In this document: positions 2,958-6,852 of the stretch, in pieces | How positions within the stretch are numbered: position 1 is the stretch's first letter | How the letters are laid out: each line of letters begins with the position of its first letter | Source of the DNA: Candidatus Nitrosocosmicus oleophilus | GTDB lineage: Archaea > Thermoproteota > Nitrososphaeria > Nitrososphaerales > Nitrososphaeraceae | DNA: 64,000 bases | NCBI RefSeq assembly: GCF_000802205.1 | Contig: NZ_CP012850.1 | Location: 1,178,001-1,242,000 of the forward strand | Direction: 5' to 3' | Notes under the pieces: model-generated | Database searches by the model: none | Told to the model about the DNA's origin: nothing | Seen by the model: only the letters and a program-made list of their open reading frames with translations | Made by a program: the position numbers and the translations under genes

Positions 2958-5783
2958 TCATGGATTGATTGTCAGAGGATTTTGTTGCTTCTCGGTTAAG
3001 CTGCTTTTCCAATAGTTTGGCAGGTTTTGCACCCAGCCATCATAAATATTAGGAATCGCTAGTACTCCTTGCCCTCCTGTTCCCTCTAAATCTGTTATTT
3101 TGTCATCAGTTATTGTATCATTTGAAGCAACAAGTGATACCTTTCCAGCAATCGATGCATCCACCGGATTTCCATCATTGTTTGGATCCCCATCTACTAC
3201 TATGGCCTCATTTGAGAAGGTACTTGAAACGTATGCATAATATCCACCCCCTTTCTTTGCACCGAAATTAACTCCGTGACATCCGGCATCACATGGTAAT
3301 TCTTTTACTACCTGATCAGTGTCGGTATCCAGTATTGTTATTGTTCCGCCGGTATTTGCTGTTACTATATATTGACCATCTGGACTTACAGGTGTCTGTA
3401 TTGGAAGAAAACCGACCGGCCCAGTTGTATTACCTGTTATTGGATCGTAATTGGCGAGGAGGTTAATTTTCTTTATCAGCGTAGCGTTGGTAGTATTTAT
3501 GACACTCATAGTACTGTCAAAAAAGTCTGCAACGTATGATTTACTACCATCCGGCATCATTCCAACTGCAACAGGGGATACGCCAGTCTTTACTTTTCCG
3601 ATTATTTTATCTTGCATCATATCATATATGGTTGTAGTTCCAGTAAGCGCATCTGGAGTTACCATGTATCTGTCATCAGAACTCATCCAATGACCGTGTG
3701 GATGAGTTGAGGGTGCTGATGGAGATTGTAACAAGATAAACTTTTCAAGATTAAATTCAGGATTCGATGACACCACAGTTACTCCATCTTCACCGTTTAG
3801 CGCTATATACAGTTTGTCAGTTGTAGTTCCAGTCATTACATGAGATGGGTCATCTCCAACTTGTATGTCCTTTACAAGCTCACCAGTTGTGCGGTCAAAT
3901 ATGGTTGTTCTGTTATCAAACCACTGAGTTTGGTAAATGAGTTCTTGATTTTTGTCAGTCCACATGTTGTGAGGATTATTCATATTGATTTCAGGCAAAG
4001 CAACTTTCTTACTTACGTTCCAAGTGGTACCGTTAATGGCCGTAGCAGTTCCCGGTTTAGTCTTGCCAGCAGTTTTTTCAAACTGTGTATCAATCCATAT
4101 TTCTCCCACTGCAGGAACCGTTGGATTTGACAAAGGAGTCAAAGTAATGTTTTGACCATATGTCTTTTCTAATACGTCTTTGACATTAACGACAGTCCCG
4201 TTTGTTATTCTAGCATCTACATCAGGATATGAAACGTGCCATGGTTGGGAGATATTTGTATAATCCTGCCAGTTTGGTGGAGAAGTTGCAATAAAGAATG
4301 TCCTTAACAACTTTAAGGCCAAATCACTATTTGTAGGAATCGTAACTCCGTTTATCAAAGTAAGTTCTTCGCCCAAGTCCAGTCCCTCTGTATCCGGATC
4401 ATCAACAATGACTGCAGCAAGCATGAAAGGATGAAGACTGCATGCAAATACATATAATCCAGGCTCGTCAAGGTTTACTATTGCTCCTCCCTTGTATGCC
4501 ATCATTTGACTAAATGGCATGTGGCTAGCGTTCTTAGGATATATTATGCTAGTTACGGTGTGAACGCCATGTGTACTATCCATCATAAAGTTAACTGTTC
4601 CAGACTTGTTTATTATCGCTAGTGATTCGCTACCTGTGTTTGATATGTCGCCTTTGAGATTTGTAAACCATTTACCTGGTTCATCACTAATTGAAAATGA
4701 TGCAAAGTTTTTGTAGGGTGATGCGCCAGGAATACTTTTTTGGGTCGACTTGTCTTCTGTCATCATTGCCTTTACTTGTGAGGATGCGTTGGCAGAAAGT
4801 ACCTTAAAGGTAGACATCATGCCTGCTTCCATATGAGAGAACACATGACAATGGTATTGCCAGTCGCCAGGACCCACACCATCGCCTGCATCTATGACAA
4901 ATACATGGGTCTTACCTGGATGGATTTCTTTTACATCAATGATATTACTTGTACCCGGATCGACCCATCTGTGAGCATGTAAATGGAATGTATGAGAGTG
5001 ACCATTGGGGTTTGATGACGGGCCTATTCCAACAATGTGGAAACGGATCTTTTGATTCTCTTCTGCTACAGGTACTGGATTTGTCCACAGAGGAGTTTGC
5101 GTACCGTTCCTATCTACTTCCATCCCCCAAAAGGTTGACCCCACCATAAACAATAGGACTTCTTTATCCAATTCATCAAGAGGTATGGTTGTTATTTTTC
5201 CATCTACAAGGGCCTCTGTCATCCTATCCTTAGGATTAACAATAACTACTCCATATAGTCCTCTATCACCTAATTCTTCATCTTGATATACGTATGTTCC
5301 TGGATTAGATGCAACAAAATCTTCTTGGGTTGTATTTCCACCTAGATGGTTGATTGTTATAAGGGCCTTGTCACCCTCGCTTATCACTATAGCCGGTCCA
5401 GGAATGGTGGCGATAGTACTATAGTTATTTGTGATGTTTAATTTAGTACCATTAGTTTGATTAATTATGTGTTGAATCATTTTATATGCTGGCTCACCAT
5501 CTGGTAGTACCTGCTCTTTAATCACTATGTCATGTACAGCAGAACTTGAATTTAGAACCATGTTTCCATCAGTTGTATTTGACGAAACTTTAGATGATAT
5601 AGTATCAAATACCTTACCATCATCGTTATTTGTCTGAGTCATTGGAATAAATGATTCAATTCCTCGTGCTATCCCGGGAGCTGTCATTGTTGAAGACAAA
5701 ATTAGCGTTGCAATGACTACGGAATAAAGAACATTAATTTTCTTGATCCATCTAGTATGGTTATTATCGTTGTTGTATGACAT
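2958..5783 (-). CDS. Secreted multicopper oxidase-cupredoxin-beta-propeller fusion (MCO-B)
   Basis: The 941-residue protein has an N-terminal signal/membrane segment (about 17-36). It then has two multicopper-oxidase cupredoxin domains, a third cupredoxin and a C-terminal YVTN-like propeller (about 595-930). Domain 1 (about 110-185) has lost its copper histidines. Domain 2 keeps a full small-laccase-type set: HTFHLHAH (264-271) and HCHVFSHMEAGM (311-322), giving type-1 and trinuclear ligands. Domain 3 has a mononuclear site, H408 with C448-x2-H451-x2-M454. In the propeller, histidines recur at one blade position (NPHNMW 605, DPSHVM 649, HPHGHWM 694-698, CHGVNFG 836). It acts outside the membrane. 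It starts one base after the stop of MCO-A, so the two are co-transcribed. The substrate is unknown. Confidence 0.88.
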   Translation of the reverse strand: MSYNNDNNHTRWIKKINVLYSVVIATLILSSTMTAPGIARGIESFIPMTQTNNDDGKVFDTISSKVSSNTTDGNMVLNSSSAVHDIVIKEQVLPDGEPAYKMIQHIINQTNGTKLNITNNYSTIATIPGPAIVISEGDKALITINHLGGNTTQEDFVASNPGTYVYQDEELGDRGLYGVVIVNPKDRMTEALVDGKITTIPLDELDKEVLLFMVGSTFWGMEVDRNGTQTPLWTNPVPVAEENQKIRFHIVGIGPSSNPNGHSHTFHLHAHRWVDPGTSNIIDVKEIHPGKTHVFVIDAGDGVGPGDWQYHCHVFSHMEAGMMSTFKVLSANASSQVKAMMTEDKSTQKSIPGASPYKNFASFSISDEPGKWFTNLKGDISNTGSESLAIINKSGTVNFMMDSTHGVHTVTSIIYPKNASHMPFSQMMAYKGGAIVNLDEPGLYVFACSLHPFMLAAVIVDDPDTEGLDLGEELTLINGVTIPTNSDLALKLLRTFFIATSPPNWQDYTNISQPWHVSYPDVDARITNGTVVNVKDVLEKTYGQNITLTPLSNPTVPAVGEIWIDTQFEKTAGKTKPGTATAINGTTWNVSKKVALPEINMNNPHNMWTDKNQELIYQTQWFDNRTTIFDRTTGELVKDIQVGDDPSHVMTGTTTDKLYIALNGEDGVTVVSSNPEFNLEKFILLQSPSAPSTHPHGHWMSSDDRYMVTPDALTGTTTIYDMMQDKIIGKVKTGVSPVAVGMMPDGSKSYVADFFDSTMSVINTTNATLIKKINLLANYDPITGNTTGPVGFLPIQTPVSPDGQYIVTANTGGTITILDTDTDQVVKELPCDAGCHGVNFGAKKGGGYYAYVSSTFSNEAIVVDGDPNNDGNPVDASIAGKVSLVASNDTITDDKITDLEGTGGQGVLAIPNIYDGWVQNLPNYWKSSLTEKQQNPLTINP

Positions 5784-5784
5784 T

Positions 5785-6852
5785 TCAAACCACCTCTTTA
5801 TTTACTGAATTTTCAAATACTTGTGCATCTAAAGAATCGGATATAACAAAATCTCCCTTCATACCTCCGAGAAGGTTAATTGTCGAATTATCATAGTAGC
5901 TTGAATTTTTGTTGGCTTCAATAGTAAAAACATGATTTGCAAGAGGACCTATTATATGAGAGTTGATAACCTTGTTTGTTCCCGGACTTAGCCATTCAAT
6001 ATTATCCATTGTGAAATTGTGAAATTCGTTTCCTGTCGATTGAATATTGAATCTAACGATACTATTATTGGCTGCAGTTAATGTCGGATTGGTTCCCAAT
6101 TGTGTATGCTTTCCACCCTTTGAATAATCTACTTCAGTTCCCCAAAACACATCATCATTGACAAATAAAATATAATCTTTGTCGATGTCGCTGACATTTA
6201 CCTGTTTTGGAACACCATTAATCAAAGCATTTACCTTTCCGTCAGAGGGATTTATAATTATACTTGAAAAAAGCCCTACTGTCTCAAGACCATCCATGCT
6301 TTTTCCTAAAACATTTCTTCCAATGGTATGATCATGAAAAGGCCATGAGCCAGCCGTACCATTTGCAGCATCCCATTTAACAGTAAATGGTTTTGTAGGA
6401 GAAGCAGCCTGATCAGAAACCTTGTTTAATTCCTTTAATGTTCCGTCACTAGTTATTTTATAATGCGCACCATGAGTGTGAACACCTGGATAACCCCATC
6501 CCATTTCATTAACGAGTGTGATAATTACCTCATCACCTTCATTTACTATGATGGTAGGCCCAGGAATAGTAGTCTCATTAGTATAGTTGGAAGTAATATC
6601 CTTAGTTTCATTACTAGTAACATCTCGAACTAAATAACTGTTGAGATTGTAAGCAATTCGATCTCCGCTTAGTTCATCCACTCCCATCTCAATTTCATGG
6701 GATTTTACATGATGGTTTTCTTGTTCTATCCTTGGGTTAGACTGAGCAAATACGTTAATAGCACTACTTGATGGTAGAGAATTTGCAACTATCAAACCAA
6801 CCGTTAGAGCTACTATTATGTTACGCGACTTAAGTAAATTGTATATGTACAA
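5785..6852 (-). CDS. Secreted two-domain multicopper oxidase-like protein (MCO-A)
   Basis: The 355-residue protein has an N-terminal hydrophobic segment (about 11-30) and two cupredoxin domains. Domain 1 (about 95-205) keeps trinuclear-cluster ligands HTHG (125-128) and FHDH (172-175). The Cys of a type-1 site is Asp here, as in domain 1 of small laccases. Domain 2 (about 225-340) reads FHNFTMDN where ligand-bearing domains read HTFHLHGH, and it lacks the HCH motif. So MCO-A alone cannot form a full copper set, but it complements domain 2 of MCO-B. It is the first gene of the pair, with a TATA box just upstream. A structural role is the alternative. Confidence 0.85.
   Translation of the reverse strand: MYIYNLLKSRNIIVALTVGLIVANSLPSSSAINVFAQSNPRIEQENHHVKSHEIEMGVDELSGDRIAYNLNSYLVRDVTSNETKDITSNYTNETTIPGPTIIVNEGDEVIITLVNEMGWGYPGVHTHGAHYKITSDGTLKELNKVSDQAASPTKPFTVKWDAANGTAGSWPFHDHTIGRNVLGKSMDGLETVGLFSSIIINPSDGKVNALINGVPKQVNVSDIDKDYILFVNDDVFWGTEVDYSKGGKHTQLGTNPTLTAANNSIVRFNIQSTGNEFHNFTMDNIEWLSPGTNKVINSHIIGPLANHVFTIEANKNSSYYDNSTINLLGGMKGDFVISDSLDAQVFENSVNKEVV

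Follow-up and report, generated by a model that had tools for sequence, protein, structure and literature searches.

Ceruloplasmin and other six-domain oxidases form a pseudo-symmetric ring whose domains have degenerated so that a single trinuclear site survives, and in the multi-subunit manganese oxidase MnxEFG, MnxG alone bears a complete cluster. Among the copper oxidases of ammonia-oxidising archaea (AOA), MCO1 and MCO4 are described as carrying their T1-T3 centres within one protein (PMC7785015). Type B two-domain oxidases, the small laccases, build the cluster where two neighbouring protomers meet, one of them providing histidines from its domain 1 and the other from its domain 2 (PMC13151041). 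In the window (the whole stretch of DNA analysed, 64,000 nucleotides of Candidatus Nitrosocosmicus oleophilus, whose 3.43 Mb genome is a single contig), two genes encode MCO-A and MCO-B (A and B), which very probably are the subunits of an obligate hetero-oligomer that arose by duplication and complementary loss, its trinuclear site being predicted to form only between domain 1 of A and domain 2 of B (A-D1:B-D2).

The MCO-A gene (positions 5785 to 6852, minus strand, as for all features of both genes) starts with a TTG codon and encodes a 355 aa protein with an N-terminal hydrophobic signal and two cupredoxin domains. The trinuclear half-site is present in A-D1, where Cu-oxidase_3 is found (Pfam) and over which MCO-A matches small laccases in a PDB search: the HTHG motif (residues 125-128, 6469 to 6480) provides the cluster ligands H125 and H127, and the FHDH motif (172-175, 6328 to 6339) provides H173 and H175, these four His being kept in 57/57 pairs. 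It is absent from A-D2 (5818 to 6237), a retained cupredoxin domain that has lost the cluster His, and in which T, D, Y, D and N are aligned at the expected cluster His and type-1 Cys positions. The type-1 Cys is replaced by Asp in 52 of the 57 A proteins, with Met in 55/57 and one His in 51/57, a pattern of conservation which suggests a retained, altered site and not simple decay.

MCO-B (2958 to 5783) is a 941 aa protein with an N-terminal hydrophobic signal, a degenerate D1, an intact D2, a third cupredoxin domain (D3) and a beta-propeller. Its start codon (ATG, 5783-5781) is separated by a single base (5784) from the stop codon of A (TGA, 5787-5785), and an IS240-type (DDE) transposase ORF is found about 100 bases past its end (2259-2858). 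B-D1 (5223 to 5531) still begins with IPGP and is about 45 residues shorter than A-D1, the missing residues including both His motifs according to the alignment. In B-D2, where Cu-oxidase_2 is found (Pfam), HTFHLHAH (264-271, 4971 to 4994) supplies the type-1 ligand H264 and the cluster ligands H267 and H269, and HCHVFSHMEAGM (311-322, 4818 to 4853) supplies the cluster ligands H311 and H313, together with C312, H317 and M322 that complete the type-1 set (H264, C312, H317, M322), all eight ligands again being kept in 57/57 pairs. The PDB search matches MCO-B to small laccases over domain 2, and B-D2 to ceruloplasmin as well. An earlier note, made from the letters of this DNA and its ORFs, is confirmed on three points: the trinuclear ligands of A lie in domain 1 only (both motifs of the ORF), B has lost those of domain 1 and keeps a full domain-2 set, the same being seen in 57/57 pairs for each protein, and one base lies between the genes. 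It had also counted H317 among the cluster ligands, which is in fact a type-1 copper ligand, and had overlooked the D3 cupredoxin and the propeller, which make MCO-B more than a two-domain oxidase.

B-D3 (4374 to 4718) is plastocyanin-like, with a type-1 site (H408, C448, H451, M454) of which each ligand is found in 88/88 proteins. The propeller (2961 to 4121) harbors near-invariant H605, H648, H696, H698, C831, C835 and H836 (84-88 of 88 proteins from AOA, ammonia-oxidising bacteria (AOB) and methanotrophs), the last three forming a CX3CH motif; located near the inner-strand starts of several blades, this His/Cys set is a possible metal or substrate site. A structure model of D3 and the propeller was obtained with high scores (pLDDT 91.5, pTM 0.92), and since the folds nearest to it are those of ordinary YVTN propellers, with N2O reductase only at rank 41, a metal site in the propeller is put forward as a hypothesis. 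The propeller was also compared with L-NosZ (NF052460), an identity that fails with an E value of 6e-13 and 48 bits, far below the 700-bit cut-off of this NCBIfam equivalog, and the similarity, judged by these scores, is generic to propellers only. In another genus of Nitrososphaeraceae (L107, L108 and L109, from genomes G108, G169 and G216), D3 and the propeller are encoded alone, as proteins of about 640 aa without oxidase domains, so this module may act by itself.

How general are these losses? Ligands were counted in 57 non-redundant pairs, which come both from AOA of soil and from Nitrosomonas, Nitrosospira and their relatives. The four domain-1 His of A are present in 57/57 pairs and its domain-2 cluster His in none, B has 8/8 domain-2 ligands in 57/57, and of the four His of domain 1, B has lost three in 57/57, whereas the position of the fourth (H173) is still occupied by His in 25. 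Since motifs had played a part in choosing these pairs, all homologous ORFs were also sorted without a motif filter, yielding 57 A and 62 B proteins, 22 short and 12 long intact proteins, and 18 with D3 and the propeller only; no complete protein fell outside these classes among all relatives sorted, and the three ORFs left over are fragments that stem from a broken gene or were cut off at contig ends. Intact relatives (marine AOA, methanotrophs and an actinobacterial outgroup) possess all twelve ligands in 34/34 cases. The complementarity of A and B, identical in 57/57 pairs, is not a chance pattern.

The two genes also travel together. Within Nitrososphaeraceae, A and B are present in the same 13/70 genomes. 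In the family of Nitrosomonas sp. Nm84, A is found in 72/125 genomes and B in the same set minus one genome, whose A sits close to a contig end, with one further genome containing only a B fragment with internal stops. A scan of named genomes found many Nitrosomonas, Nitrosospira and Nitrosovibrio genomes to carry the pair. Of the 67 pairs listed, nearly all have A upstream of B on one strand, at a distance of no more than a few tens of bases. Two divergent A-B pairs occur in tandem in a Nitrosomonas MAG (L171:67-8115), and three AOA genomes (G317, G320, G082) have two divergent pairs each. Two B-like genes, which count against an obligate partnership, have no adjoining A: one (L106:6558-9710) lies between two transposase-like ORFs, in a genome with two other A-B pairs, and the other, from a Nitrosopumilus MAG (L113:8343-10859, equivalent to L181), encodes a B-like D2-D3-propeller protein from which most of domain 1 is absent. 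The intact oxidase of marine AOA is either fused to D3 and the propeller or alone; in one marine AOA locus (L110:2402-3993), D2 and D3 are missing and domain 1 is not in frame with the propeller, so that this is probably a decayed or misassembled copy. In methanotrophs, an intact two-domain oxidase gene is followed by a separate D3-propeller gene. Gene neighbours (in AOB, LuxR-type response regulators upstream; in methanotrophs, GTP cyclohydrolase I, ECF sigma factors and HTH regulators) indicate no function at these AOB and methanotroph loci.

In a tree built after removal of the ligand columns and including the actinobacterial outgroup, A forms one clade (100/99) and B another (99/98), and the intact proteins fall outside both. 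These clades, the conserved ligands and the existence of intact relatives point to one duplication of an intact two-domain oxidase, followed by complementary degeneration and by spread over two domains of life. In the case of A, archaeal sequences separate cleanly from bacterial ones, and in the case of B almost as cleanly, suggesting a single ancient origin of the pair, with few transfers between the two domains of life. The retained domains are closer to the intact proteins than the degenerate ones (A-D1 47% vs A-D2 32%; B-D2 45% vs B-D1 24%), and the distance matrices of A and B are correlated over the 57 pairs (r = 0.91, a value inflated by shared phylogeny). The earlier note had suggested looking for the pair in other Nitrososphaerota, where it is indeed found with the same losses, but it is not confined to them and is commoner in ammonia-oxidising bacteria. 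Lone homologues with intact ligands in both domains, which the same note regarded as evidence against its model, do occur in marine AOA and methanotrophs, but branch outside the A and B clades; read from the tree as the ancestral state, they account for the pair instead of contradicting it.

According to the mechanism that we propose, A and B would be paralogues serving as subunits of a single exported multicopper oxidase, which belongs with the small laccases (type B two-domain). Its ancestor would have been a homotrimer, with the cluster located where domain 1 of each subunit meets domain 2 of its neighbour, and following duplication of its gene, copy A would have lost the domain-2 half-site and copy B the domain-1 half-site, B also bearing the plastocyanin-like domain and the propeller. 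As A is devoid of domain-2 ligands and B of domain-1 ligands, only the A-D1:B-D2 interface can build a cluster, and the O2-reducing trinuclear site would now form exclusively there. The simplest assembly would be a pseudo-trimer of composition AAB or ABB, or else an A-B dimer, with a single active site. Electrons from the substrate would reach the type-1 copper of D2, perhaps by way of the propeller and the type-1 copper of D3, and then pass to the interfacial cluster. We infer the physical complex, its stoichiometry, copper loading, electron path and substrate. The obligate complex with a site only at A-D1:B-D2, as claimed in the earlier note, is well supported by comparison of homologues and by the known geometry; the 'halving or patterning' of sites that it associated with the complex is not, because a three-membered ring cannot alternate, so that AAB or ABB would hold one site, like ceruloplasmin, at one competent interface out of three.

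Structure prediction with AF2 was performed on the A-B read-through of a MAG named Candidatus Nitrosocosmicus (L127, Nitrososphaeraceae), which is 76% identical to the window over the A-B stretch and in which A and B are naturally in frame across one stop. The model (pTM 0.75) folds A-D2 and B-D1 with confidence, consistent with both being kept as structural domains. Covariation between A-D1 and B-D2 is weakly enriched (20 of the 50 highest-ranking, against 13.3 expected), and no enrichment was found between A-D2 and B-D1, the effective sequences numbering about 10 in both cases.

The full cluster is absent from A alone and from B alone, and B still has two complete type-1 sites, as would be expected if the two proteins worked apart as partly dead oxidases, A in copper binding or as a structural protein, and B in electron transfer via its type-1 sites only. 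Such separate action seems improbable: it leaves no reason for keeping the four His of A or H267, H269, H311 and H313 of B, whereas both half-sites are retained without exception in 57 pairs from two domains of life, and the genes adjoin and co-occur. It is still harder to credit that each half-site finds its complement in some other multicopper oxidase of the cell, even though eight further PF07732 loci are present in the host genome. Those examined are three-domain laccase-like proteins or carry a YHC type-1 motif in domain 1, and they show no match to A-D2, B-D3 or the propeller and weak matches to B-D2, while the adjacency, joint presence and parallel clades of A and B indicate each other as partners.

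A further explanation, compatible with the site shared between A and B, is that the A-B complex forms but performs its main chemistry in the propeller, whose electrons the oxidase module would take up as a sink. The near-invariance of the propeller His/Cys in AOA, AOB and methanotrophs, their position close to the inner-strand starts, and the fact that D3 and the propeller form a gene of their own beside an intact oxidase in methanotrophs speak for it; on the other side, the nearest folds are those of ordinary YVTN propellers, and metal binding is only something that we infer, so that we consider it rather unlikely. Returning to the site shared between A and B, the complex could conceivably be an unrecognised nitrifier enzyme, a pseudo-symmetric oxidase whose one interfacial trinuclear site is connected by two type-1 coppers to a His/Cys metal site in the propeller, where some small compound used by nitrifiers and methanotrophs, for example NO, hydroxylamine or a metal ion, would be oxidised, a doubtful assignment at this stage.

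Taken together, the A-B pair would represent a clean natural case of a homomer with interfacial sites turned into an obligate heteromer by duplication and complementary loss, for which marine AOA and methanotrophs preserve the intact state for comparison. It also illustrates how judging genes singly can cause the copper oxidases of ammonia oxidisers to be overlooked, or annotated as inactive, and brings to light a copper oxidase, cupredoxin and propeller system common to AOA, AOB and methanotrophs.

In the open-access literature, no paper describing the A-B pair was found, also not among work on hetero-oligomeric or two-domain oxidases, and none joining a multicopper oxidase and a propeller with Nitrosomonas, or a multicopper oxidase and a beta-propeller with methanotrophs. 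The pair, as its sequences indicate, is a real and conserved variant of two-domain multicopper oxidases, absent from the open papers searched. Like MCO1 and MCO4, it consists of copper oxidases of ammonia-oxidising archaea, but it is not complete in one protein: neither A nor B combines a complete T1-T3 oxidase with a blue copper domain as MCO4 does. The MCO4-like protein of the host (L005, 586 aa) has a blue copper motif at its C-terminus and bears the YHC motif in domain 1, and gives no match to B-D3 or the propeller. In a Foldseek search with the fused L127 model, ceruloplasmin came first, at a TM score of only ~0.26, with 9bxa among the matches. Ceruloplasmin is one chain, whereas in A-B the degeneration is split over separate subunits and stems from a separate duplication. 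MnxEFG (9bxa) is likewise a multi-subunit multicopper oxidase complex, but its complete cluster resides in MnxG, and A-B has a complete cluster in neither subunit. The closest likeness is to the small laccases (SLAC 3cg8, Ssl1 4m3h, 3t9w), which are homologous in sequence to A-D1 and B-D2: two cupredoxin domains homologous to theirs are found in each subunit, the same eight cluster His recur, the type-1 site is in domain 2 only (57/57 for B-D2, the Cys being lost from A-D2), and the same interfacial cluster geometry is expected. Unlike small laccases, B also contains a third cupredoxin and a propeller, and whereas the known enzymes are one-gene homotrimers with both half-sites on one polypeptide, the half-sites of A-B are carried by two paralogues and are both present only in A plus B jointly.
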